Positions 1,230-44,935 of a stretch of DNA of 64,000 nt are shown here, piece by piece. The translations under genes and the position numbers were made by a program. Under the pieces are notes generated by a model. That model saw only the letters and a program-made list of their open reading frames with translations, was not told the origin of the DNA and made no database searches. The stretch spans positions 28,635,449 through 28,699,448 of the forward strand of contig NC_079491.1 of NCBI RefSeq assembly GCF_020520425.1, in the 5' to 3' direction. The first letter of the stretch is position 1. Each line of letters begins with the position of its first letter. This DNA comes from Spinacia oleracea. Taxonomy: Eukaryota; Streptophyta; Magnoliopsida; Caryophyllales; Amaranthaceae.

Positions 1230-3400
1230 TTGAAGAAGGATATGATATTATATTTTCATGTCCAAAAATAGCATAAAGCGTAATGTAAAAGACATTATAA
1301 AACAGACTAAAACGTAAAGTGTAAAAATCATTTTGAAATGAAGGTAGTAAAGAAAAAAAAAGATAATGAAAGATTGAAAGCACACATACACACGATCACC
1401 TTAAATTATGTGGTCTCCTTTAGAAGATATGGAGATGGGAGGCAATCCCATTTTGACAATAACAAAAAGAAAAGGAGTCTTTTTTTATTTGATTCACCAA
1501 GTAAGATGATAAGCAAATTAAGTAGCAAAATGTCATACGCATAAAGCCATAAAACAAGATTGTTTTATAGTGCCGAAAGCTTTCGTTGTTAGTTGCTGTT
1601 TGGCTTGGCTTGGAAATTGGAATTGGCTGGTGTGATTATATTTCAACTTTCATGTATGCTTAAGATTGCTTACTAGTGATTCACAATCTTGTTTCCTTTT
1701 CTGCCTCTTTTTACTTTCTAGTCCTCGTCTTTTGTTGTAATTTGTGTGGCTACACATTCACTTTTTATGATCAAAAACTGCATGCAATGCATATCTTGGT
1801 TTTCCTAAATGTACTTGGGTTTTTGTCTTTTTATAAGATGGGGGAAGAAAATGTATTAATTAAGAGACCTTGCTCTCAAAGTAGAACACCTAAGTAATCA
1901 TTACGTAGTACTTAGGAGCGAGAGGAGTTGCGGGTTATTACAATATTCTATGTACATCGAAGAACTCATTAAAAACTATTAATGGGAAAATAAAGTTTGC
2001 ATTCTCCAACACGACGAGGAAAACTCTTCAATGTAGATTTCTCGCTCAACTTATGACAATTGTTCCAAGGGAAACAATGCAAGGTTTATAAGACTACGGA
2101 TTATATATTCTTGGATGTCAGTGTGCAATGATCTGAAAACAAGAAGTCAAGAACAGGTGAACCAAACTTCAAGTACAAGTAGTTATTGGGATACGTACGG
2201 GTCAATTAGTTGAAATCCGCAACAATAAAGGAAATTATCATCACTAAGGAAATTTGTGAGTAGCTACTACATATATAGGGATATGGACCTCGACCCCGAG
2301 GCTGGTTGATTCCAAACTCTCTTACATTTCGTCAACAGGACAACTACCCTTTTCGTTTCTCAATATTGATTCTGAAACACATAATCACCGCAACACCAAG
2401 GTCGATCATGTCGGATTAAAGTTGGAAAAGACGTCGTCTGATGGGACCGGGCGGAGTAATATGACCGGGAACGAGTGTTGAGTAAAAATTGGAAGGTTAA
2501 TGAGCCTAATCGGGTGGGCTCGTCCGATCAAGCAAATATATTTAGTGATTTTATTGTTGCATTCATGTCTGGCTAGGCGAATTACACGACCTTTAGGTCA
2601 GTGACGTTCAACCAAAGGTCGCGATATCCGATTTTGCTTGCCTCCTCGTGATTCCTTAGCTTTGTAATACGTAGTAGTTAATAAACTCTTCATTAGCATA
2701 CTTAAGTCTATTGATGATGGTGATTGAATTCTTTTGAGTCTCTTGGCTTCCTTGGGTTGTCTTGATTCATCGTTAAATTCTATATATACACTCCTTTTCT
2801 GGCTTTGTATATACAACATTGTTATCTCCTATTCTTTTTTTCTATTCTCTCTTTTGGGCATAAGTTCTAGTGACTCATCACACACCTAATAGTGCCATTG
2901 TGTGTTGAGAATTGCGTAAACCTTTAGGGAATGAATCGGTAAAGACTATTGAACACCTCATTTTCAAGGCAGTGGTTTCATTATCACGGCATAACCATTT
3001 TCGTAAGATCATTCTACTATTTTGTTCTACATTTATTCTTGAAAACCTTTATTTACAACAGATCCCACCTATGTTACTTCATCTATGGTGAAAAATGGGG
3101 AATTATCAGAAGCGTTTATCCTTTTTTTCAAGGTGGCATTGGTGACAAATGAAAATTGACACCGCGTGTTTATAGTCATTTTGAAAGCAATGTTATCAGA
3201 AAAAAAAAAGAGCTCGTAGTAGTTATTCGATTTCTCTTTGTATGCGTTGGTTGTTCACTTAGCCTTTATAAAAAAAACAAAAAATGACTCACATTTATTA
3301 TCAAATCAGTGTCGCCCTTTTAATTAGCCTTCATATAAATATGTTGTACGAAGCATAATGTTTAATATATGTATTTGACATACTTGTGTACAGACTATGA
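1230..3400. other. Spacer without recognisable gene
   Basis: Short open frames here have no family similarity and unremarkable composition. The stretch at about 2280-2600 is richer in GC than its surroundings but shows no recognisable domain. Nothing else is supported. Confidence 0.5.
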
Positions 3401-3404
3401 TGTA

Positions 3405-3612
3405 TTCCCTCCATTTCAAAATAATGGTTACCTTTGCCATAAATATGTATTCCAATTTAATGAGGATACTCTACTTTATCTCATTTTGGGTAGATGGTCC
3501 ATCATATTTAATGTATTCACACTCTTCTTTTTCCCACTTTACTTACAACATTTCACTCTATCTATTTTTATATTCTCTATTACTCATAACTTTTCACTCA
3601 CCCTAAATTTTT
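3405..3612 (+). mobile_element. Degenerate Stowaway-like MITE end
   Basis: ATTCCCTCCATTTCAAAAT near 3409 resembles the common Stowaway terminus CTCCCTCCGT. The opposite end is not visible and the next repeat begins right after it, so this may be a MITE broken by that insertion. Confidence 0.35.
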
Positions 3613-4780
3613 TTATCGGATTTTTCATGAAATAACCCCCAAATTTTGTCATAATTCACCAACCGCTCATCAAGTTTCAATTTTACATAAAATACCCCAA
3701 GTACCTTAATGACGTTATCAACCCCAATTTAACCCACCCATCAACCCATCCCCCCCCCCCTCCTTTTTTTTCTCTCTCCCCCTTTCTTCTTCCCTAGCCT
3801 TTTCTCCATGGATGCCCCCTTCCACTCTCTTCCCAGATCCCCAATTGACCACCACCAACGTTTTCGGCGCCTTCACCGCCCAAAATCCATGTTTAGGTTT
3901 CCGCTCAAAATACTCGCCGCCGGAAACGTTTGCCTTCTCTCTGATTCTGATTTGGATTTAACAAACAAAAATGAGCGACGGCGATGTGAGGAAGAGAGGG
4001 AGACGAAGCTCAAAAAGTTGTTCCTTTATACGGGGAGTTGGTATCGGATGAGTTGGGATTTTGAGTTGGAATTTTTATATTTAATTTTTGAGTTGGGATT
4101 TTTATATTTAATTTTTGCAGTGTGGGTATTCATCCCCAACACAATCTTCCATCATGAAGATCTTGACCTTAAAGGGAAGGAGCTAGCCAACAATGACGAT
4201 TGTCTTACAATGGATGAAGTCAGTGCTGACCTTGATGCCTGTCAATGGCGAGATTTCAATGACGATAACGATGGCGACGAAGATGATGATAATGAAAGTG
4301 TGAATATGGAGAATTTTTATCCCAGAAGAGGGAGAAGAGTGAATCTAAGAAAGGTGTTTGACCCAGTGGAGGAGAGAGAGTGGAAGGCGGGGGAGAGAGA
4401 GTGGAAGGCGGTGGTTGTTGTGGTGGCGGATTGGCGTTTGTCGATCAATGGTCGGTCAATGGAAAAAGGGAAGAAGGAGATAGAGGGAGAAAAGAAAAGG
4501 AAAATGGGTGAGTTAGTGGGTTAATGGCTGGGTTGATTAGGTTTGTTGATGGGTGGGTTGATTAGGGGTGTTAATTAGGGATTAGGTGGGTTGATTATAT
4601 GTTAATGGGTTGATTATGGGGTTGATGACGTCATTAAGGATATTTGGTGTATTAAGTTTTGAAATAGGGGTATTTGGTGTATTATATTTTCAAATAGGGG
4701 TATTTTTATGTATTATTGAAACTTAAGGACATTTGGTGAATTTCCTTAAAACTCTGGGCATTTCATGAAAAATTCGTGAT
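3613..4780. mobile_element. DNA element with inverted ends (family shared with 61.3 kb), possible gene-carrying MULE
   Basis: The left end near 3617 has ATTTTTCATGAAAT followed by AATTCACCAA, CATCAAGTTTCAAT and a TACATAAAATACCCC-like segment. The right end near 4640-4780 repeats the same words in the same order on the opposite strand, so the element has long, diverged terminal inverted repeats of about 100 bp. The left-end pattern recurs near 61.3 kb. The interior holds a 238-codon open frame at 3808-4524 with an acidic middle and no recognised domain. Direct GGGTTGATTA repeats crowd 4530-4620. Long TIRs and a gene-like interior suggest a Mutator-type element. No target-site duplication was found. 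Confidence 0.5.
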
Positions 4781-4784
4781 AGTT

Positions 4785-6095
4785 CAGTAGGAACACTTGA
4801 CAAGAGGGGGGGTGAATTGTTTCTTGGGAACTTGGGTAAGTTTCTTGCGGAATTCAAAAAATAAAGAGACTGTGAACAATGAGCGAAGAAAGATATAAAA
4901 CTGAGGAACCTTCTTGATCCTAATCAAGAAGAACCTCATAACTCTTTGGTATTAATGCAATAACTCTATTAAAAATACACTATTTAACTCGAGTTCCTCT
5001 CGAACACGAGTTCCCCACAACAATCCCCTTCGATTACTGTGCTACTCTTTCTCTCTCTGACTTAACTCTAAGTCTCTCTTTTTCTCTTTGACTTAACTCT
5101 AAGTCGCTCTTTTTCTCTTTGACTTAAGTCTAAGTCGCTCTTTTTCTCTTTGACTTAACTCTAAGTCACTCAAGGATCACTCAACCCTTAAACCCAAAAT
5201 ACAATATGATAGATAAACTCTAGTACATAATAAAGCTTTTAGCAATAAGGAACTCAAGGAACACTCTATTTTGCAAATTGATTCTTTTAAAACGTTTAAG
5301 CTCTTTAAGATATATTTTGTAGAAATCAGTTGTGTGTTTTGAAAAGCAAAAACTCTTCTCCTTTTATAGAGGAGTTTTACCTAAGGTTGGGTACCCATGT
5401 TCTCCTCAACTACCCACTAACTGTTACTGCTCAGTAACATGGGCATAGTTGGAGAGAAACAGGGGAGACCAAATCAAAACACTAATTGCACGTTTAAACA
5501 GAAATACGTGGGAGAGTTTCAAGGATCATGGAAAATCTTTTACTTGAGAAACAAGGAGAATGAAAACAAAATCCTATGTTTACATTTATTAATTAAATTC
5601 ATTTTATTTATTAAAAACGATTTTCTATTTTAAAACTCTTTTATAATTACAGTTAATATATTTCAATTTAAAACGCACCAAAATACTTAGGTTCCTTTCG
5701 TTCCAAATTACGTATAAACATTATTAAATACTTACATAAATCCTAAACATAAACTCATATGATATAGTCTTCATGCTTGCACCTTTAGGAAGCTTCACTC
5801 AAAGTCTTCATAGTTTGTTCCTTCTCTGGAACTTCGAGGATCCACATAATATATGAGGATCTCGCCTTAGGAACTCGCTTAAGGATCTCGCCTTGCAAAC
5901 TTGCTAGATGATTAATTCTTCAACGTAGTGTCTGACATGGATCAAATACTTGCATATATTCCACGTTGCTTAGTTTATCCAACTCAGGATCTCCTTAACT
6001 TAGCATTATCCCTCTAAAGATCTCAGAACCTATTATGCATAATAACTTAACCAATAGTCATGAGTTTTCTTTGTCATCATCAAAACTTTAGGGTC
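4785..6095 (+). mobile_element. LTR-retrotransposon remnant, possibly Ty1/copia (SIRE-like)
   Basis: Fossil. The segment opens with GACAAGAGGGGGGGTGAATT and closes with TTGTCATCATCAAAACTTT, words I associate with terminal regions of SIRE/Maximus-type copia elements in plants. No coding domain is present, so this looks like LTR or solo-LTR material. Family assignment is tentative and limits are approximate. Confidence 0.35.
5059..5170. repeat. 31-bp tandem repeat, about 3.6 copies
   Basis: A unit beginning GACTTAACTCTAAGTC and continuing with a CT/T-rich half starts at 5059, 5090, 5121 and 5152, an exact 31-bp period with few differences. It lies inside the LTR-type remnant. Confidence 0.85.
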
Positions 6096-30800: not shown

Positions 30801-33800
30801 ACATAAAGTTTTATCAATAAAAATTGTGCCAATGTAACAAGGAATAGAAAAACTCTCGGGGTCCTTAAGCTTAGGTGGAGACTTATTTTGTAGTATAGCA
30901 CTACACTCTTCAGTAAAAGTGATAGTCTCAACCTCACAAAAACCACGTTTTTTGGTCAATATATCTTTCATAAATTTAGCATACACAGGAACTTGTAAAA
31001 TTAACTCAGTAAAAGGAGCAGTTACCTGCAATTTTTTGACCGCATCTAAGAACTTACCAAACTACTTTTCTATCTTATTCTTGAGTTGACGGTTTGGGAA
31101 GGGGCGTACAATAGGTGGTACTTAAATTTCAGTTCCCTTCTTAACCTCATGTGCAACCTCTTTCTCACGGGCTACCTTTTCAGCTACTACCTTCTCTGTG
31201 ACTACCTCCTCGACTACTTTCTCAACCGGGTCACTACTAGACCCTCTAGAATCATCATCAACAGGCATAGAAGGGCCTTCATACCCATGCCCACTCTGCA
31301 GTGTAATAGCATTTGTAGTATCTTTATTGTCAGGCTGTGAAGGGAGTTGACCTTGGGTTCTCCCCGCAAGACTAGTGCCCATTTGGGAAAATTGATTATC
31401 AATGATCTTATTATGAGCAGCAAGAGCATCAATTTTTGCATCCTTTTTTGCAAGAGAATTTCGCATCATAAAGCATCATATTGCGCATCTCCACTGAGGG
31501 GCCTGAGGCTGTGATGGTGGAATATGTGCCTGTGGAGGGGTATAAGATGGTCTAGAGAACCCGGGTGGTCCACCAGACTGTTGTTGTTGATTATTGTTTC
31601 CCCTAGGTTGATATTGTTGCTGTGGTGGTGGAGGGTATTGAATTTGATGTGGGTTTTGAACATTGGTACTCCTATAGGATAGGAGGGGATTATTTTTGTA
31701 TCCCTCATTATAAGTATTGGAGTACGGGTTATTCTTCTTGTAGGCCTAAAATGCATTACATTGCTCAATGGAGCTTCTACACTCCTGTGCATAATGGCCA
31801 GACACCCCACAACTATCACAGACATTCACGGTTTGGGCATTCATTACAGCTACACTAATAGGTTGGGCATATTGAGATGATGTAGCTTGCATATTATCTA
31901 ACTTATAATGTAAGGCAGTCATTTGAGCAGTGAGTTGTTCAATAGAATTTATCTTATGCTTACCACCTTTGTTGGGTAGACCCTTAGGATTCCCATACTT
32001 GGCATTGTGGATGGCCATCTCCTCAATCATCTCCACGGCTCTAGACACATGAAGTTGTATGAACCTCCCATTCATAGCATAATCCAGAATAGGCCTAGAA
32101 TCATTACACAGACCATTATAAAACTGATGAATTAAGAACCACGGTTGTAGACCATGGTGTGGGAATTCTCTCTGTAGATCCTTGAACCATTCCCAGACTT
32201 CAAACAAGCTCTCATCTGCCAATTGTGTGATGAAAATTTGACTGCTTAGACGGGATGTCTTCTCAGGTGGGAAGTATTTCACATAGAAATCAAGGGCCAA
32301 AGATTCTCGGTTAGTGATTTTCAGCTGCTCGATTGAGCCCATTAATCCATAGCTTTGCTTTTCCACTCAGTGAAAATGGGGAAAGTATTTCCATAGTCTG
32401 CTCTGGAACTACATTCTTCTGCTTGATAGTAGAGCAATATTGAATAAAAGACTGAATATGAAGATTAGGGTCTTCACCCTTCTCCCCACCGAACTGGTGT
32501 CTCTCAATCATATTTATCAAAGCAGGCTCAATTTTGAAGCTTTCGGCTGCAATAGTAGGCATGATATCCTTAGGTAGCACAAACAGACTTGACTTAGAGT
32601 AGTCTGTAATCCTTGGCTCTGTTTAGTCACCCACCTCTAAATTTGTATTAAAAATTTCGCCAACAAGATGATCAGATTCTGAGTCAGAATAATCTCCCAA
32701 CTGTTTGATAAAGTTTCTTCGTCTACAAAAGGTCCTTTCAGGTTCAGGATCAAACGGAGTAAGATCACTAGTAACTACGGTCATGGGCATAGAAAACCAA
32801 AACTAACAAACACTTGTGAGATCCGATCTCAAGGAACGGGAGTCCCTTGAGACGTAGAAAATAATCTAGAACAAACAATTAATATAGAAAATAAAACTGT
32901 TTCCCCGGCAACGGTGCGAAAATTTGATAGGCTAAAGTCGTATCACCTAATCAAAGATAACCTAAATTCACTAACCAAATAGTAAGTGAAGTCATGATCG
33001 AATCCACAGGGAAACAATGTTCTTTCCACTTTACTAAAATAAAATTCTAGATTATTGGTAACAGGAAAATGGTTTGGTTTAAGGAATTAAACTACAACGA
33101 TAATTAAACAATGAGAAAATCAATAATAAAAGGCATAGGGTATAGGTTCACCAATGAACAATATTCCGGGATGAAATACAATAATTAACAATCAATGAAA
33201 CGATTGATTAGACCAGCATGCTCTTTCGAATCGATATTAATCATAGAATTAGCAATAACGTACAGGTTCTCGCAATTTATTAGAACTAATTCTATCTATT
33301 GAAACTAGCCTTAGCATCATGTTGCATCTCTCGATTATTAACTCAATACCGCGCAACTATAACAATTAACCCTGCGCAAATCTAATTTCATAGCAATAAT
33401 ATCAATCGATCAATAGGAAATCAATAAATAACACCAACAATCAACAATAACAATTCATCCCTTCATATTCATTCATGGATCCCCAAACCCTAGATTAAAA
33501 CTACTCACACATAATTAAAGTAAGAAAAGCAATTGTATTTTATTGAAAACATAATTAAATTACAATAAGAAAATAAGGGAATGATTTAATACCGAATTGA
33601 TGAACGACGGATTAATTGAAAGGTTGAAGCTTTGAATTGAAGAATAAAATTGTTCAACAAAAGTTGAGAGAATAAAACTAAGTGAAATAAAATAAGAATG
33701 CTGAAAATTAGATGTTTTACAAAATATTAAGGGCCTAGTATTTATAGCCTTACCCAAAATTAAAATGAAAACCGGATCATTAAAACGTGAAAACGCGCCT

Positions 33801-34537
33801 GGGTTGTCGTCGTCCAATCGGGAAAAGGGGGCTCGATTGGGCGAACAACTCGATGAAATCTTCAAGTTTGCAGGCAGCAGCGCAGGCGTCCGACGTGCAC
33901 CGAGCGCCTGATCAGGCGCGTGCCAAAATGTTAATTCTCGCCCGACGGCCTGCTCTCCGCACTTTAGAAGTTGACGAGCCCAGCGCCCGATGGGCACCGG
34001 GCGGATGGCGCCCGATCGGGTGCGTGTAGAATTGATAATTTCTCATTCTTTATTGCCCGATTGGTCTCCCTTCGCCCGTAGATTGCCGGGAGACCTTCAA
34101 TATAGGCCTAGAGACTCCATTCTTCCTTCCAATCACTACAAGAAATTTACCTTTTCGTGGCGATTATTTAGTATCAAATATATAATCGCTACTATAAGTC
34201 AATATTGTTTGTTAAATTATATAAACAATTTTCGCACTTTATAATCGCTATATTACCCTTTAATTAATCAATACGAAAAACAAATTAGATATTATTCAAG
34301 TATACCGCCCAATTTTTCACAATTGCGCTCAACTTTTCCTTCGAAACTTTTCGCTAAAAAATTTCACTTCCCTCCACACTGCTATCCCGTCTTCTCTACT
34401 TAGGGTTTAGATCAGTTTTCTCTCGTCCTCCATAGATACCAAAAGCTTGAACTCGAAGCGCGAGATTCTGGGCTAGGGTGTGAATAATTTGCGCAATTTG
34501 TCATCCCTTCTCTCCTTCCCCCAAATTGAGGAGTAAG

Positions 34538-34692
34538 ATGGGAAGCTCCAACACCGGGGAAAAAGACGATTCCGGCGCTAACGCTGGTGGTAGCGACTCC
34601 TCTAAGGCGGTGTTCCAGATCCTAAGCCCGGCCTTTACACAAAAGGCGAGAAGGTCCTCGCTTATCACGGTCCTCGCATCTACGAAGCCAAG
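34538..34692 (+). pseudogene. Captured first exon of an MRG (MORF4-related) chromodomain gene
   Basis: ATGGGAAGCTCC at 34538 opens MGSSNTGEKDDSGANAGGSD, like the N-termini of plant MRG1/MRG2. Further on, a frame ending at 34692 reads YTKGEKVLAYHGPRIYEAK, the start of the MRG chromodomain, followed by a GT donor (AAG|GTTAGTC). The two parts are in different frames, so a small length change separates them, and the rest of the gene is absent. Sequence before the ATG (CTTAGGGTTTAGATC and a CT-rich leader) looks like captured 5' UTR. MRG proteins read H3K4/K36 methylation. This copy cannot make a whole protein. It lies inside the CACTA. Confidence 0.8.
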
Positions 34693-35489
34693 GTTAGTCT
34701 CTCCTCTCTTGACTTCCGCCTGTATTTTGCCGAAATTATTTTCTCACTTTTTTTGTTCTAATTCAGCGTTCTTGATTGATATCAATATGTATTTGCTAAA
34801 TTGAAGTTGTCGAATTGGATTTTCTGGTGTGTTTGCTCTGTTTGATTCAATAGGTAAAGAAATTTGGAAGTATTGGAATGTATTAATATAGTTATGGGTT
34901 AGGTTTTGCGTGATTTGAACTATTGATAATGAGCGTGTTTAGATTTCAAGTAGCTATGAAAATTTAGGAGAAATGTAGACACCGACATCAAGATTGTCCG
35001 CACTATTGAATTTGGTGAAATTTCAATTGGAATTCGAGTTTATCAGAGTGTAACCTGATTGAACATTTATTGCAACTTATTAATTTTCCGATGACTGGGG
35101 ACAATTGTAATCTTTATCGTTTGTTGTTTGTGAAAATTGATGAATTCACTTTTAAGTTATAAACATTGTGTTGATGCCAATATAAATTTCATTCGTGGAA
35201 AAATTCCCTCACGTAATTCATACTTTTAGACCATGTTAAGGACACTAGTAAGAAATCACATGGCCGGACCTAAAGTTTGTTTCGTTTGCGTGATCTAAGT
35301 GTTAAGTTTTGAAGTTCTTAATAACTATTTTAACATAACATTGAAAGTGTGAAGCAATATTTCATCTGTTGTGGCATTGTAGTAGGATTGATATTTGGTC
35401 CTGTACTCCTATTAGTTCTCTGTTTGGCAAAGATTTGCACTAAAATGTGTTTGAAATGCTTACAAACTTTGGAACTTAGAAGTTGAAGA

Positions 35490-35860
35490 AACATTATATA
35501 CTTGGGACACCCGATGGTCTCACTGTCCAACCTTGACAACACCAATTTCCATGGACTTGAGCAATGGTAGCATGTACACTTTTGACCCCAAAGTGTATTT
35601 GGGCAGCTCTGATGGTAAGCTTTTTGAGTTCTTTCTCCAGTTTCTTGATGTGGGTTTCGAGCTCATTTATGATAGCACTAAATTCGGGCACAGTTTCTTC
35701 GGCTTTTGATGCTCCCTGTTCTTTTTCCAGTTTAGCATGAACAAGGGCTTCCATATCAGCTTCAAATTTAAGTTCTTGTTTCTCTAGTTCTTCCTCCAGG
35801 TTATAGTTATGAATTTCAAAGATTACTTCAGTCTCAGCAGAAACCTTTTCCTGAACCATA
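35490..35860 (-). pseudogene. Captured coiled-coil gene fragment
   Basis: A 121-codon minus-strand frame reads, in part, EADMEALVHAKLEKEQGASK and ELETHIKKLEKELKK. The words resemble the long coiled coil of plant NT-C2/myosin-heavy-chain-like proteins, but their order differs from what I recall, so the match is weak. It may instead be an old transposon protein. It lies inside the CACTA and lacks a recognisable full gene. Confidence 0.4.
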
Positions 35861-37279
35861 AAACGAACGAAGTTTAGAACTTGAAAGTCACTTCTATGTT
35901 CAGGCCATACAGAAAGATAGAGAAAAAGTATGTTGTTGTCTGGATAACATGCAATTCAAAAACCAAGCAAAAGCAACCTGATTACTGATGTTCAGTTCAT
36001 TTTTTTCAAGGTAATTTACATCCAAGCCGGGTTAAGACTACTTATTCACCTAAATCAGCCCTAAGCTCCTTCTGCACATGTTAAGAACCATGAATCACCT
36101 AAATCAGCTGCCTTCTCACTCATTGATATGCCACGGATCATGTCAAAGGCCTTCTTAAGCAATATTTTTCTCATCATTCTCACCTTAAATGAGCACGTGT
36201 GTGAGAAAAAAAGAGGAAAGAATCAAAATCTGGAAAAACTGCAAAAAATAATCAAAAAAAGTTTGTGTCGGGTGAAAGGAGTGTCAAGTATGAGAAGACG
36301 TATGAACAGTGCTTGAACCTGTTTACTTCTCTCAGAGAGTGCGGCGTTCTTGTGCATCAGTGGTGGTGATCTTTGGTAACAGACCATACTTGAATGTCTT
36401 TTTAGCCTTTTCTTGTACTTTATCAAATGCAGTATTTACTGGTAAATGCACTTCATTTTCCTGTTCGTGTTCCACAATTAATTCTCAGTCATACATGTTG
36501 TCTTAAAAGGTTTACTTGTTAGTGAAAATTTATATTTTATTAAGTGATACCACATTCTTTGATTTATTTGTTTCATACAGGTTGTTGTTATCCTATATTC
36601 TTCCAATAATATTTCGGTTATGAATCTATGATGTACCGATTCTTCGCAATTCTTGAAGTGACCATGATACTGCAATTTCCTTTCTATGTTGGCATGAGTG
36701 AACAAGTAAGTAGTTGGAATTTTCAACATCATATACTTTATGTTTTCCATTATTCAAATTTGTACTGGTTTGCACCTTTCTTTATTGAAATTCTGCCTTT
36801 TTTTAAGAAAAACATTATTGTATCTGGCATTGGCAATTTGTAATCTATTTCTATACATAACTATAAGGTGTTGTCAAATCTTATAGGATGATGACACTTC
36901 GGCATGGGGGTCATGAAATGCAAATCTTAGGTAGCAACGCATAAGGACGGTAAGAATTGTTTACTTCTGCTCTAAATCAACATTCTATACTTCCAAAATC
37001 AGCATAAGTTCCCATTGCTCTGGTACTGAGAACATTAATGGTTTTATTGCTATTTCGTGGTCAAGTTTAGGAGAACCTACATCTTGTATGGAACATTACT
37101 GCTAGAGTTTAGCATTAGCTAGAGTAGGCGTGAATTCCGTAGTCTGGGATGTTGGTCGGTAGTTAACTGTTCTTTAGGTGAAGGCCTCTCAGTTGGAATT
37201 GTTAGATGTCAGGAGGGCGACTTATTAAGTTATTATGTTTGAAAACTTTACAAAGCACCTTAGTTAGAGTGTAAACTCC

Positions 37280-37354
37280 CCTGCGAGCAACAATGCCAGA
37301 GTAAACATCAGTTGGTTTATCCCCTGCGACAAGATTCACAACCTCTGCTCCAAT
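37280..37354 (-). pseudogene. Captured exon of a phage-type organellar RNA polymerase (RPOT)
   Basis: The minus strand reads IGAEVVNLVAGDKPTDVYSG followed by IVARR, close to the plant RPOT motif NLV..KPADVYSGIAAR. It is preceded by a 3' splice-site-like TTTTTATTCAG and followed by non-homologous sequence, so one exon was taken with part of its intron. RPOT enzymes transcribe mitochondrial and plastid genes. This fragment is inside the CACTA and not functional on its own. Confidence 0.75.
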
Positions 37355-37771
37355 CTGAATAAAAAATGATCATCATTAAGTAGAAAAATAAACTAGCATT
37401 GCAGTTCCATTTGTAGTCTTTCTATTCTTCCCCATTTTATTTTAATTTTTACTAACTACCTTTACTAATAAAAACATAACATTATTTTTCACACATGAAT
37501 TAGTCCACCATGGTTCTGTCTGCTACTTTTTGAGAGCTCTCATACCTAAATGTAATTTTACTTAACAATTATAACTTTTCTGTTTGAACACTCAAAAAAC
37601 AAAATTAGAGAAGTAATACTGAATTACTAATTGCATATCATAAACACATCATAGCTAGGGGTTCTAATCGAGTTGAGCAACTTGAACTCGGCTCGGACAA
37701 CGCTAGGTCAAAACTTGATTCCAGTTAGCTCGGCGCAAACTCGACTCAAAACCTTGGTAGTCAGTTTGAAT

Positions 37772-38126
37772 TTTGCTCAGTTGGTAGTCAGTTTGAATTT
37801 TGGTTCATGTAAACTTTTCTTAGGAATGCTGAATTATATGGAACACATAACACCCACTATTTTCATATTATCTTTTCCTTCTTATTACTTAGCTGACATA
37901 TAGAAGTCAGTTTGACAATTTTTCATGAACTGGCATGAGCTGATTTCAGTTACCTTAGCTAAGTTGGTAGAGAGGATTGTACATGAACTGGTCTAAGCTG
38001 ATTTGCTCAGTTGGTAGTCAGTTTGAATTTTCCTCAGTTGGTAGTCAGTTTGAATTTTGGTTCATGTAAACTTTCCTTAGGAATGCTGAATTATATGGAA
38101 CACATAACACCCACTATTTTCATATT
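37772..38126. repeat. Internal direct duplication of about 100 bp
   Basis: CTCAGTTGGTAGTCAGTTTG through CACCCACTATTTTCATATT occurs at about 37776-37869 and again at about 38033-38126. An extra partial unit CTCAGTTGGTAGTCAGTTTG lies at about 38006. CATGAACTGGNNTGAGCTG-like words sit between and after them. The copies differ at very few bases, so the duplication is recent or held by conversion. Confidence 0.8.
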
Positions 38127-38828
38127 CTTAGGGAAGCATAATTGTCAGATACAAAAGTTCTGATACTGCTAATGGATTCATAGATATTTCTATTCTGCTC
38201 TTGCAATCATAGTTAATGTTTATAAGGATGATGAGATTAGGATACTACAGTTGAGAAGACTATATGCGTCAATACTGTGAATTTGCCAGGTCGGATTTCT
38301 AGCATATATGGTACATGAACTGGCCTGAGCTGTAAGACTAGACTGCTAGAGCATTGTTGTCAGTGGCCTGATATTATCAGTAGGTTAGGATAATAAGGTT
38401 GAAATAAAATAATTTACTTAATTTCAGTAGATAGTACTAAGAGTCATACTAGCTGGAGTGCAGGGCAACTTCATTTTGTTGAACCTTATTATCCTAAGCT
38501 TCTTATATATTGGAACTATTTCAGTAATTGCTGAATCATGGACCTTCTTAGTCAGTTTGTATGTTTGTGGAGTAGGGTACAATCAAGATCAGCCCATATC
38601 AGTTAAAATAAAAAATACTAGACCTTGATATGGAATCTTCAAATCAAGAATAGACCTTAAAGGCTTTTTGAAGTGTGGTTCTATCAGTTATTCGGGTTAA
38701 TTACTAGTGTTCGTCAATGGAAAATATTGACATTGTTGCTGGAACTTCCACCCACCGCATTTCCTTATGCTGATAATCTGGAGCAAGTTCCATTCCGTAG
38801 TATGCTTGATGTTGAAACCAAAGACTCA

Positions 38829-39057
38829 GGGCTTGTTCGGTATCGTTGTTTGTTTCTAGTTTTCTGTTTTTTACAAAACTAAAAACCAAAATATGAAAAC
38901 CACAAAAAGTAGTTTCCAGTTTTTTGCTGTCAATTTTCAAAATTAACATGATTAAAATAGGTATGACTATTTTTTAGTCATAATTCAATCTAAATCATAT
39001 GACTTATAAAACCAAAAAACCAAAAACTGAAAACTGACAGTGATACCGAACGGGCCC
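38829..39057. mobile_element. MITE, 229 bp, TIR GGGC..GTTCGGTATC, TSD TCA
   Basis: Left end GGGCTTGTTCGGTATC. Right end inverted GGGCCCGTTCGGTATC. Flanks are TCA on both sides (38826-38828 and 39058-39060). The GGGC end and 3-bp TSD suggest PIF/Harbinger (Tourist-type), though hAT cannot be excluded. No coding content. It is inserted inside the CACTA. Confidence 0.8.
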
Positions 39058-40489
39058 TCAATTATCGGTTTGCTTGTCTTATTACTGACTAGTGTTATTA
39101 ATTATCGTACATTCTTTTGATTTGCAGATAACTCTTTATTTGGCAAACGGTGGAGTTGGACTTATTTTGGGAAGCACACGACGTTATCGACTTATACTAT
39201 ATTAGTTGTTTTATTGTTACGTTGTAGTAGTTAATTAGTTATTTATCTTGTCATCTGCAAATTATTAGACAACATTTTGTTAAGTTGTTAAGATTATTAG
39301 ACAACTAGATTTAAGCCCGTGCGATGCACGGTTTTTTTTAAATATGATTTGTTAATCGTTCTTAGAACTATACTCACTTACTATTGTGATCAAGAATTAC
39401 GTTAATCATTTATTTTATTTTATTTTAATTGTGAGATCCAATTTGTACTTTTATTTTTTTAACTCTTATTAGTTATTACTATGGATAAATAACAAACTAA
39501 AACAACTACTCCCTTTGCCTCTAATGTTACACTTTCGAATGTTAACGGTATTCATAATTGAAGAGAATCTACTAAACTCTTTCCAATACTTAAGAAAAAA
39601 CATATTCATGTAGGGTCTTGTTTGATCCATTTTTATGGGTACATTAAGAATATCAATGTTATTATTTTGTCTAATGTATTATTAGAGATTAAAGTGATAC
39701 AAAATACGTATTGGCAAACATGAAAAATAGAAACTGTAATGTCTGATTATTTGTTAAAAAACAATTTAAAGAATTTCCTAGATCATTTTTCTAAATAAAC
39801 CCGCCAAATCATTACAACATGTGTTATCATATATAAATAGGTGTTTTATAAATTACACATATAATAGAAAGTTAAAATAGATCCCTATTCAAGTTAGAAT
39901 ATAAATATTTTCTTAACATTGAAAATGTTTATGCATAAGAGTCTCATAGAAAAACCGAGTTTATAAAATGGTTAGTTCAATAATGGGAAAACTCGAGTTA
40001 GTTATTCATGTGATGCTATTAGAACTCTATTAAATACTTAATAATAATTATCATAATTAAAATTTATGATATGAATTGATCCAAATATCAAACGTTTAAT
40101 ATAAATAAAACTCTATTACATGCTTGATAATTATCTAAAAATAGAAGTTAATCGTATATCATGTGTATGTTATCGCACTTTTATAATAATGTATTAGTAA
40201 AGTAATTGTCATTACCTACTTGTTACCAGCTTTGAAACATTAGTTGTTGTTTTCTTGGTAATGTCGTGCTTAAATACTGTATACGACTATAATAATGTAT
40301 TAGTAATTGTCATTTGAATTAATTATTCGCATCTAGCACTTGAAGAGTTGTAGTCTTGTAGGGGTTTAAATCACGGGTTACACTCTATGTTACGAATATC
40401 AAAGGCTTAATGTAAGTAAAACTCTATTATGTTAAAAAGTAGAAGTACGTAGGATAAATTTACGTTGAAAATCTACTATCATTTTGTTT

Positions 40490-40775
40490 GTTATCATCTT
40501 TTCAAATATTTATCTTATCACTATGGATAATTTACACGTAGTACAAAACATGGAAGAGATAGAATATGATAAATTTTCGTTAGGATATTTTATTCGTATG
40601 GGGTATTTTAAAGATAATTAGAATGCTATTTTAGTTATCATCTTTTATAATATTTATCTTATCATTATGGGTAACATATATAGAATATAAAGCATGGAAG
40701 AGATAGAATATGATAAATTTTCATTAGAACATTTTTCATATGGAATATTTTAAAGATAATAATGATGCTATGTTA
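40490..40775. repeat. Tandem duplication of about 140-165 bp inside the Helitron
   Basis: ATCATCTTTTCAAATATTTATCTTATCA and CATGGAAGAGATAGAATATG with the following ATAAATTTTCGTTAG are repeated as a second unit about 140-150 bp further on, with moderate divergence. Non-coding. Confidence 0.75.
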
Positions 40776-41952
40776 ATTATAGACTCCTTAAAAAAGTATT
40801 AGCATTATCTGACTCAAATTCCAACTGAAAAACGCAATCCAAACTGGGAAAAAAAGTTGGATCATAATCACACCATACATTAGAGAAGTGAATACTTATT
40901 AAAAATTAATTAGAAGCTATCACACCATGCATTATTTTAATAGTTCGTCTATTGTTTCAGTATAAGACCCCAACTTTAGATTCGTTTATGTTCAGGCTGA
41001 CCATTATTTTGGTTTAGTATAATATGTTGGAGCCAACTATTAAAAACAACGTTGTTAATAGCTTAAAGTGTAGCCTAAACTATATCAATTAAAGTTGTTA
41101 CCGTTTAGGCTAAAATTAAATTGTGTTTACGTATTGGTTTACTTGTTTACCTCTTTTCATCCATCACCTCTCACGGTTGTGATTAACGGTTTTATGTGTG
41201 ATATTAGGGTAGAGTTCACCTTGCTTTTGTAGTGTACATCTTATATACGGAAAACCTATTGTTGCAGCATTAGTTTATATATGCAGCACATGATCTTGAA
41301 TCTGTTTTTGTTCTCTCTTTACAGTGCTTAAACAAATACAAATTGTTTATCTCCAACATAATGGACTTGCTTAAAAAAGGAAATATCTAGATATCTAAAC
41401 ATCTAAAGAATAAGAGGGATCTGAGAAGGTAGGAGGAGAATTGAAAAAATGAAACAATTGAGGAGTTTGGCCAAAGTCTTCCTCCTTAATTGAAGCTAAG
41501 GGAATTCTATAGTATTTTAAAGGAAAAGGAAATGCAAGCAATTAAGGAGAGAACCAATTTACTTTTATTAATCATCAGCACAGTTTTAGGATTATACTTC
41601 ATATAAACTATAATTCAAGTCACGGCATTTATAACGCAACTTCAACTAAAATTGTGAAGGCTATTAAGATGAAAGCTTCAAACACATGAAGGTTCCTTTG
41701 AACCATGCAAACTACTTCGTATACCATTATATAATAACGAAAATACTCAGTATATAATTGTGTGCTCGTATATTAATTACGGCTACACGGACCTAATTAA
41801 CTAAAATTATACCATCAACCGTGAGTTTTTGTGGATTGTTGAAGTAGGATTTTTGGTAGCCATGAGCTTATATGTATATATATACAAAAAGGTAAAAGAA
41901 AAGTAAGATAATTTTTTGTTGGAATCTATCTTTATCATATTATGTATCTATC

Positions 41953-42260
41953 TTTTTTTTTTAATTAATTAAAATATATTAATAATGATTATATTTTAAT
42001 CCAAGTAGAATTATAATGTAAATAAAATTCTAATGTAAATGTAAATAACATTCTAACGAAATTTTTAGGTGTTAGCACTCTTATGGTGTTAGGATTCCAA
42101 CATAAAGTAAGATTTTGATACCTAACATTCCAACGGAAACTTTGATCCAATGGAAATTTTAATTTATCCTTTTTTTTAATTAATTAAAATATATTAATAA
42201 TGATTTTGTTTTAATTTATCTTTTTTTTTAATTAATTAAAATATATTAATAATGATTTTG
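41953..42260. repeat. Three copies of a TTAATTAATTAAAATATATT unit near the Helitron 5' end
   Basis: The block T(n)AATTAATTAAAATATATTAATAATGATT, about 36 bp, occurs at about 41955, 42171 and 42221 in the same orientation with almost no change. Confidence 0.85.
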
Positions 42261-43186
42261 TGACTGGACATTCCTACGTGGCGCTCCGAATGCTCTCCAA
42301 AAAACTCCCATTTATATATATATATTAGATTATATATCACATATGTAATAACTTATGACATACTCTATATGAGTTGTTTATTTATAATATTATTTTATCT
42401 TATAATTATCTGGGATTTCAAATTTATATTCATGTATAATTATAATTGCCAATATGTTCTTTTTTGTAGCGATTATAATCGCCGCTATAGACTGTCAATC
42501 TGGATTTAACAAATATTAATGTATCAATTACGAAATGGATAGTATTACGTAAATATGCAACGATAAATAACCTATAGTAGTGATTATAATCGATACGATA
42601 AGTATCTAATAGCGTCTATTGCATTCGCTACTATAACTACCAATAGCAACGATTCTTTTGCCACTGAACGAATGTATTTGGTATGTGAAATTAGGAAATT
42701 ATAGCGATTATAATCGCTACAATAATCGATCCTATTACACATAGTATTTCGTATCGATTGTTTTTGTCTACCCCATTGAAGGCACTAATCGCTACTAAAG
42801 GCTATGGCAACGGTGGCTACCGCCTCGAATAACTAAATGATGGGGAATGTTTTCGTAGCGAATATATTCGTTACTAAAGGCCAAAATAATCACCACAAAA
42901 GCCCTTTTTTCTTGTAGTGAATCACCGAGTCTAACTCTTAGGGCTCAAATATAAGCATCGTAGGCTCCTAAGAGTTGACAATGATCATCCTAAATATACT
43001 CAGGATCGTGTAGTGGCCCATAATATCATGAAACGAGCCTAAAAATGCCAATTTCTCTTCAAACAACCTGAAACCTCAAGACACACTACACAACGCATAT
43101 TAGTATTAAAAGCGGCTCCTAAGAGCTCATTTAAGATAGGAAAGTACTAAGGGATGGGGTAAAATCACTATAAAGTATGCATATCA

Positions 43187-44935
43187 GGGTTTTACAAAGG
43201 TCCACCTTAAACTCACTTCCGGAAAAAACTTTGTCTTTGAATAATGTCTTGTATGTTCCATCCCTTAGCAGGAATCTTGTTTCGGGTTCCCTTTTCAACA
43301 AAGTCAGCCTAAAACTTGTCTTTGAGGCGGACATGATTGTTATCTCTAAGAATGGAGACTTTGTTGGGAAATGTTACCTTGGTGAATGATTGTTTGTGTT
43401 GAATGTTTTGAACAGTAATGAAAGTACTTCTTCTTTTGCTTATATCGTTGAGTCTATGGATGTTTGACACAATCAATTAGGATATTTAAATGTTTCATAC
43501 ATGAAAAAATTAAAAGACATGAACTTGATTTCTTTTGATAAAATTGACAAAGCCTCTAAACTAGAGCTGATCAACACTGGCCCAACCAGCTGCCCCGACC
43601 CGACCCGACCCGAAATTTACCGGGTTTTGGGCAGCCTTTTCGGCCCGGTTTCCCGGGCCCGGCCAGACCCGAACTTTTTAAAAAAATTGCGGGCTTTGGA
43701 CAACATAAAATAACAATTTTAGTTATAAATTTGGCCCGACCCAAATGTGGACCGAAAAGCCCGCTATTTTTGGCCCAAAATAGCGGGTTTTGGGCACAAA
43801 AAATCGGCCCAAAGTTTGGCCCTTCCCGGCCCGACACAATGGGCATATTTTTTTGCCCTTGGCCCGGCCCGGCCCCGCCCGCCTTTTGATCAGGTTGAGG
43901 CCAAACATACTAAGAAACCATTTAAGCAAGTGGTAACGAGAAGTACTAAATTGTTAGAGTTGATTCACTCGGATTTAGCGGACTTTAAAAATTGCACTGC
44001 TAGTAGAGGTGTGAAAAATTATTACATAACTTTTGTTGATGATTTTTCAAGGTTTACCAAGGTGTATCTTTTGAAAACTAAGGATGAGGCCAAAAGTGCA
44101 TTTTTAAAGTATAAAGCCTAGGATGAAATTCAACTTGGCCTTAAAATTAAAAGAGTTAGAACCAATAGAGGTGGTGAATATGGAAAATGGTCCTTAAAAT
44201 AATTTTGTGAAACTAATGTAATCATCCACGAGTTAAGTTCTCCTCACACTCCACAACAAAATGGTATTCCCGAAATGAAATATAAATCTTTAAAAGTGAC
44301 TATGAATGTCATTCTTCTAAGTTCCGGATTATCCAACAACATGTAGGGGGGTGCGGTTTTATCCGCTTGTTATGTACTCAATAGAGTGCCCCATAAGAAG
44401 TTGGATAAGACACCCTATGAACTTTGGAAGGGTTATAGTCTTAACATTGATATTTTGAAAGTGTGGGGGGGCTTAGCAAGGTTGTTTTTCCAGATTTTAA
44501 GAAAATCACCATTGGGTCTAAAACTTTTGATTGTGTGTTGGTTATGCTCATAATAGCGCCGCATATAGATTCATGTTTTTGATTGATCATTCTGTTATTG
44601 AATCTAGGGATGCAGTTTTCTTTGAACATACTTTCTCATTGAAATCCTCTTTGTCTTCTCATGTGCATGAGTCAAGTGTTGATGTGCCTTTGGATGTTTC
44701 TTTGCCAAGTCTTAGTGTTCCTCCTCCTCCCACTATAGTGGAAGAAGTCCAACCTAGGAAGAGTAAGAGGCTTAGAGTAGAGAATACCTTTGGACCAGAT
44801 TTCTTGACCGTTTTTCTTGTTGAAGACTTTGTTGTAGATTATTTGAGTGAAATTGTTTTTTATTTGTTTCTCTTAGAAGAAGACCCAAATACTTATAGTG
44901 AAGCTATGAAATCCATATATGTTAGTTTTTAGAAA
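43187..44935 (+). mobile_element. Ty1/copia retrotransposon fossil, internal part
   Basis: Fossil, broken, with numerous interruptions. Visible parts on the plus strand are the region before integrase (SLPEKTLSLNNVLYVPSLSR, near 43190-43560), the integrase core (LIHSDLADF, YYITFVDDFSRFTKVYLLK, near 43940-44330) and downstream polyprotein text to about 44935. LTRs and reverse transcriptase are not recognised. A GGCCCGG-type hAT MITE is inserted in it at 43562-43898. It abuts the gypsy LTR on its left, suggesting the gypsy element inserted into it. Confidence 0.8.
43562..43898. mobile_element. hAT-type MITE of the GGCCCGG family, copy 2
   Basis: Ends TAGAGCTGATCAA and, inverted, TCAACCTGATCAA. 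The interior has GGCCCGGCCCG and CGGGTTTTGGGCA words like the copy at 27.5 kb. Flanking 8-mers are CTCTAAAC and GGCCAAAC, only partly alike, so this copy or its flanks have diverged. It is inserted in the copia fossil. Confidence 0.75.

Follow-up and report, generated by a model that had tools for sequence, protein, structure and literature searches.

The element at positions 34134–42919

How do pieces of unrelated host genes come to lie between the ends of a single transposable element, and did they travel with it? The question is raised by positions 34134–42919 of the window, by which we mean the whole 64 000-nt stretch of DNA analysed, from spinach (Spinacia oleracea), a member of the Amaranthaceae (contig NC_079491.1, positions 28,635,449–28,699,448). 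The original prediction had placed here a Pack-CACTA, i.e. a CACTA element holding exons of two host genes, and this reading is supported by donors in the same genome and by a second copy of the element. We conclude with high confidence that the element is a non-autonomous CACTA (En/Spm) element, a Pack-CACTA, which has the ends and leader of its family, lacks the transposase-coding region and holds at least five host pieces. Intact ends, a 3-bp duplication, a host locus for each piece, the second copy and a tnp2-type relative with the same ends were all found.

The intact ends that had been predicted were confirmed, as the terminal repeat CACTACAAGAAA is present at both ends of a complete element that is flanked by the target-site duplication AAT, read directly from the flanks at 34131–34133 and 42920–42922. 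The first letters of the element are CACTACAAGAAATTTACC and the last are TTTTTTCTTGTAGTG, with TTCTTGTAGTG forming the right terminus that ends at 42919. The subterminal motif ATAATCGC/GCGATTAT occurs three times in 34134–34500 and four times in 42334–42919, and was found neither in 34500–39300 nor in 39305–42333; such confinement to both end regions is the pattern expected of CACTA subterminal repeats. The left end (34134–34530, plus strand), delimited by comparison of loci, comprises the terminal repeat, the subterminal motifs and a leader (34411–34530) common to the relative L047 and, up to 34496, also to L019 and L021. The right end (42330–42919, plus strand), made up of subterminal repeats and the terminal repeat, was found at 80% identity or better at a minimum of 40 places, those of the window and the second copy included; some of these lack the inner part, and 40 out of 76 candidates were scored. 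Between the host pieces and the right end lies a CACTA 3′ region (37754–39304, plus strand), rearranged and with an internal duplication, which contains stretches common to L012, L013, L014 and L047. Later insertions make up 37% of the interval 34134–42919, a feature missed in the first reading, and no frame between stops in the element is longer than 153 aa.

Host origins of the five pieces

The genome searched comprises 894,210,420 bases in 242 contigs, of which C1–C6 measure 115–189 Mb each. The rbcL protein encoded on contig C242 agrees, by eye, with that of spinach in PDB 1aa1_L at all 474 residues aligned. MRG and coiled-coil DNA were used in one search only, with 40 of its 3402 candidates scored, and every candidate was scored in the searches with RPOT/core, methyltransferase and HSP90 DNA. 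Comparison of the interior with the genome, as the original prediction had proposed, recovered donor MRG (C3) and RPOT (C5) genes as well as the second copy of the element. Although the two predicted host genes were thus traced, their number was too low, as a long coiled-coil gene, an HSP90 gene and a methyltransferase gene have to be added, giving at least five donors on four chromosomes.

The MRG first exon predicted on the plus strand lies in a piece (34528–35621) consisting of 10 bp of leader, the first coding exon and part of intron 1, which matches C3:147311799–147312892 at 94% by BLAST with gaps (E value 0; 42 differences in 1083 aligned bases). In the element the ATG is at 34538 and the splice donor GTTAGT at approximately 34693. 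The donor exon 1 translates as MGSSNTGGKDDSGANAGGSDSSNGGVPDPKPGLYTEGEKVLAYHGPRIYEAK; since this exon returns nothing in Pfam, we rejected an MRG identification based on it alone. The donor locus also has further exons on the same strand, EFRKKEWRYFVHYL and WDEWVGMDRLMKITDENIQ, and, approximately 8 kb from the match and again on the same strand, an MRG-domain exon at C3:147304576–147304758 (PF05712, E value 8.9e-13). The first reading had missed a 1-base deletion within the exon, identical in both copies of the element, after which the frame leaves MRG (...GGSDSSKA). It had also taken the leader for MRG's own, which does not hold, as similarity to the donor begins no more than 10 bp ahead of the ATG and the leader before that point is CACTA-family sequence.

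The predicted coiled-coil stretch (35619–36114, minus strand, antisense) indeed matches a long coiled-coil gene at C6:140.05 Mb (L049), an open frame of 920 aa which returned no Pfam match and which we take to be an NT-C2-type myosin-like protein. Two segments, 35619–35819 at 94.0% and 35826–36033 at 88.9%, are out of donor order, and 36034–36114 matches only L015 and L016 among the loci compared. Also antisense is the HSP90 piece (36113–36267, minus strand), composed of an exon part, VRMMRKILLKKAFDMIRGISMSE, and an adjoining presumed intron, with 10 differences in 152 aligned bases from C2:94960340–94960491. An exon near this donor match contains PF00183 (E value 9.4e-33), and the donor's version of the captured exon scores 12.8 bits, below the Pfam cut-off of 24.4. 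Both the HSP90 and the coiled-coil pieces presumably extend into intron. The methyltransferase piece (36269–36690, plus strand) holds the last 33 or so codons of its gene, reading GERSVKYEKTYEQCLNLFTSLRECGVLVHQWW and then a stop, followed by 3′ flank. It matches C5:24578153–24578561 at 90% with gaps (28 differences in 408 aligned bases), where the donor frame contains DUF7870 (E value 6.5e-34) and an FkbM domain (E value 2.2e-6).

The RPOT exon with its intron edge, predicted on the minus strand, was likewise traced to a donor, at C5:3079982–3080594. The piece (37284–37763, antisense) consists of one 71-nt exon (37284–37354) with its upstream intron and is 85–90% identical to the donor, with an E value of 3.5e-110 for the longer part; its two parts differ from the donor at 12 of 121 and at 49 of 354 aligned bases, and 138 donor bp are missing at approximately 37405. 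The exon, IGAEVVNLVAGDKPTDVYSGIVAR, scores 19.3 bits for PF00940, below the cut-off of 22, and other exons of the donor gene pass the RNA_pol cut-off. Position 37284 is the exon's splice boundary in the donor; we rejected this exact edge as a sign of complementary DNA because the intron is kept on the other side. An origin as retrocopies is ruled out by the MRG intron 1 and the RPOT intron within the pieces.

A second copy on C4 and the movement of the cargo

A second complete copy, here called the sister, lies at C4:156525048–156546698 between flanks GAA/GAA. It is 98.4% identical to the window copy (91 differences in 5518 aligned bases; Kimura two-parameter distance 0.017) and carries the five pieces, arranged as in the window, at 97.4–99.4% identity. 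Window positions 34134–34314 map to it from L042:549 (C4:156525048), 34311–35125 in L009, and 35123–38828, 39057–39310 and 42323–42919 in L010, up to the end at C4:156546698. The sister has two insertions of its own, one of long terminal repeat (LTR) type in its left end, where a 303-bp end piece recurs on the other side at 98.7%, and a nested 5.5-kb CACTA element in the MRG intron (L009/L010, C4:156536673–156542161) with CACTACTACAAA ends and a GTT duplication. It lacks the Helitron and the small 229-bp element of the window copy.

When all extracted loci were compared (41, growing to 61), all five pieces were present together only in the window's own and the sister loci. The cargo in this order was likewise found only in the sister of the same CACTA, and not outside a CACTA element (40 of 3402 candidates scored in the MRG/coiled-coil search). 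The same cargo in the same order on another chromosome, with its own duplication, indicates that it moved as a unit, and the presence of all five pieces next to a different duplication indicates that they were inside before the element's last move.

Junctions and order of capture

At several junctions the matches to the parents overlap, by GAG between left core and MRG (34528–34530), by GCT between MRG and coiled coil (35619–35621) and by 2 bp (36113–36114) between coiled coil, as in L015, and HSP90; ATGAG is, by eye, common to both sides of the methyltransferase/core junction. We also calculated the divergence from the host loci as Kimura two-parameter distances with standard errors (in parentheses). 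These are 0.042 (0.007) for the MRG intron, 0.069 (0.022) for HSP90, 0.072 (0.014) for the methyltransferase, 0.062 (0.018) and 0.121 (0.026) for the coiled coil, and 0.107 (0.032) and 0.153 (0.023) for RPOT. Such unequal values suggest stepwise capture; if rates were alike, RPOT would have been taken up earlier than MRG, and the two copies would have separated after both captures.

Unequal divergences might also be read as showing that the pieces are independent nested insertions or repair patches, received one by one by an immobile, dead CACTA element, and never moved as cargo. Later insertions did occur in both copies, namely the Helitron and the small element in the window and the nested CACTA and LTR-type insertion in the sister, which lends this view some support. 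We nevertheless regard it as very unlikely, as its strong form is refuted by the sister, in which the five pieces are arranged as in the window copy but the target duplication is a different one, and no insertion duplications were seen around the pieces when the junctions were read by eye, though not systematically.

Relatives of the element

A relative with the same ends lies at C6:126073909–126083822 (L047 with L059), flanked by AAT/AAT. It encodes Transposase_21 (E value 1.9e-83), Transpos_assoc and DUF4218, as well as a 149-aa open reading frame (ORF). Its right end is 83% identical to that of the window element with gaps (63 gap columns and, over the 580 aligned bases, 48 differences). 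At E 1e-5 no DNA of the window element matches the part of L047 that codes for tnp2 (2607–5452), and Pfam detected no transposase in the one frame scanned of its four stop-to-stop frames of at least 90 aa. The original prediction was right that no transposase is visible, but it overlooked a relic of the family core (36690–37256, plus strand), consisting of the end of the 149-aa ORF and the following non-coding sequence, to which the matches to L047 in this region are limited. This ORF has 20 matches in the genome, whole or partial. It shows no transposase match in Pfam, and for this reason the label Transposase_24 was dropped.

Host pieces also occur in other members of the family. L021 (C6:30.26 Mb) carries a portion of the coiled-coil gene together with an HSP90 piece reaching past the window's junction. 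A common capture of the coiled coil in L021 and the window appears likely from these matches, although mostly different stretches of the gene are involved. An RPB3-like frame in L021 (RNA_pol_L, PF01193, 20.7 bits) falls below its cut-off of 24 and was set aside as suggestive only. Judging from match positions, C1:92.90 Mb also has coiled coil and HSP90, in this order and next to a right end. In L014 (C4:187.155 Mb) a urease gamma frame (3000–3407; PF00547, E value 6.3e-14) is found next to an end belonging to this CACTA family, an assignment made without a view of the L014 left end and with a second right-end motif near the piece. This frame has 14 matches, including C5:112.64, C4:62.09, C5:70.42 and C6:126.08 Mb, each between the family ORF and a right end; Pfam recognizes nothing in the corresponding frame of L047, and the piece is a putative capture from a host urease gene. 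Taken together, these loci indicate that host pieces are frequent in this CACTA family. Matching 3-bp duplications were also found at L013 (TCT) and L019 (AAT).

Several points weigh against our interpretation. L012 has mismatched flanks (TAC/TAT), and the tnp2 domain of L047 is interrupted by an in-frame TGA, where a short intron is possible, so that L047 is no more than a candidate for a working source of transposase. The names RPOT, HSP90 and MRG rest on the donor genes, because the captured RPOT exon and the donor's HSP90 exon score below cut-off and Pfam recognizes nothing in MRG exon 1. One base at the HSP90/methyltransferase junction is unmatched and 27 bases (37257–37283) before RPOT are unassigned, and the overlaps at the other junctions, which would fit short-homology joining, may also be due to chance. 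Transposition is inferred from two insertion sites. Stepwise capture, finally, assumes similar rates at the five loci and that the loci matched are the true donors. The same pattern of divergence could arise from donor paralogues or from uneven rates.

Possible mechanism and effects of the cargo

Under the Pack-CACTA interpretation, mobilization would occur in trans by a tnp2 transposase of this CACTA family, and the pieces would have been acquired over several steps, by short-homology joining in repair or by aberrant excision. The cargo would be expected to yield no MRG or RPOT protein, and any effect would come through chimeric transcripts or through small RNAs against the donors. By analogy with Tgm-Express1 of soybean, chimeric transcripts could start in the leader, which is joined to an exon that has an ATG and a GT splice donor. 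Small-RNA effects on the donor genes are possible, and conceivable because the RPOT, HSP90 and coiled-coil pieces are antisense to the leader.

The same fusion, with its retained splice donor, together with a methyltransferase stop and 3′ flank downstream in sense, could instead be taken to mean that the set of pieces is a functional chimeric gene under selection. This we consider extremely improbable, as the identical 1-bp deletion breaks the MRG frame in both copies, no stop-to-stop frame exceeds the 153 aa given above, and three of the five pieces are antisense; the broken frame and the antisense pieces make a protein role unlikely.

More tentatively, and with rather less than even confidence, we suggest that the family accumulates host pieces as an inherited, layered cargo, in which early modules are passed on and then added to, and which could also give rise to small RNAs directed against several housekeeping genes, since the MRG exon continues the leader in sense and RPOT, HSP90 and the coiled coil are antisense. 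The early modules would be RPOT and the coiled coil with HSP90, which stand in the same order in other members, followed by the methyltransferase and then MRG. If so, a single element would be a datable record of successive captures.

Comparison with known systems

Among open-licence papers we found none that deals with this element or with the capture of genes by CACTA elements in spinach. Soybean Tgm-Express1 holds five host fragments, with chimeric transcripts reported (PMC1947982). As in the spinach element, CACTA-type ends surround about five unrelated host fragments keeping exon and intron parts, whereas Tgm-Express1 measures 5.7 kb, lies in an F3H intron and has its fragments spliced into transcripts, the spinach element being known from sequence alone; species, family and donors also differ. 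Pack-CACTAs are established in Arabidopsis and maize, with several captured loci, most of all in maize (PMC8903248). These share CACTACAA ends, captured coding DNA and material from several loci, but belong to other species and another family, and in the spinach case a transposase-coding relative and a small core relic are visible. In Chenopodium, from the same plant family, CACTA-like elements contain captured AP2 and Neprosin fragments in their 5′ region (PMC8978399); there the fragments lie upstream of a retained transposase-associated domain, whereas the spinach element has five donors and no transposase domains. A capture model based on tandem insertion and aberrant excision is reviewed in PMC13317346.

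The element is a well-preserved example of a known phenomenon, not a new one, and knowledge of CACTA elements is unchanged by it. The combination of MRG with RPOT, which had seemed new in the original prediction, has no evident meaning, as relatives carry other host DNA (L014 urease, L021 coiled coil and HSP90), and is a single instance out of a wider range of cargo. What the locus offers is a case fully traceable within one genome, with both ends, both duplications, five host loci, a sister and a transposase-coding relative, so that the order and relative age of captures can be measured and competing capture models have a test bed.

Later insertions and flanking sequence

The larger of the later insertions in the window copy is a 3025-bp Helitron (39305–42329, minus strand) with a 5′ TC and a 3′ hairpin, CCGTGCATCGCACGG, followed by CTAG, inserted between A and T with no duplication. 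The corresponding site in the sister is empty, and at least 15 other near-full-length copies exist at 98–100% identity (40 of 3402 candidates scored); the Helitron looks young. As Helitrons capture genes and exons, its presence inside the element could suggest that a Helitron gathered the cargo and that the CACTA merely surrounds it. We give this virtually no credence: the Helitron encloses none of the five pieces, which span 34528–37763, none of them is present in six other copies examined with flanks (L003–L008), and a sister with the cargo and no Helitron refutes it. The smaller insertion is a 229-bp inverted-repeat element (38829–39057; GGGCTTGTTCGGTATC...GATACCGAACGGGCCC) with a TCA duplication, absent from the sister.

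To the right of the element, positions 43747–44121 (plus strand) resemble by eye a piece of copia integrase, with no Pfam match at E 0.01 for 43753–44121. To the left lies a retrotransposon gag frame (31746–32366, minus strand; Retrotrans_gag, E value 4.8e-7), and the CACTA element thus stands near retrotransposon remains. One of the other Helitron copies, L007 (C4:170418320–170424351), has a nearly identical stretch of approximately 28 bp on both sides, which is unexpected, as Helitrons are said not to duplicate their target.

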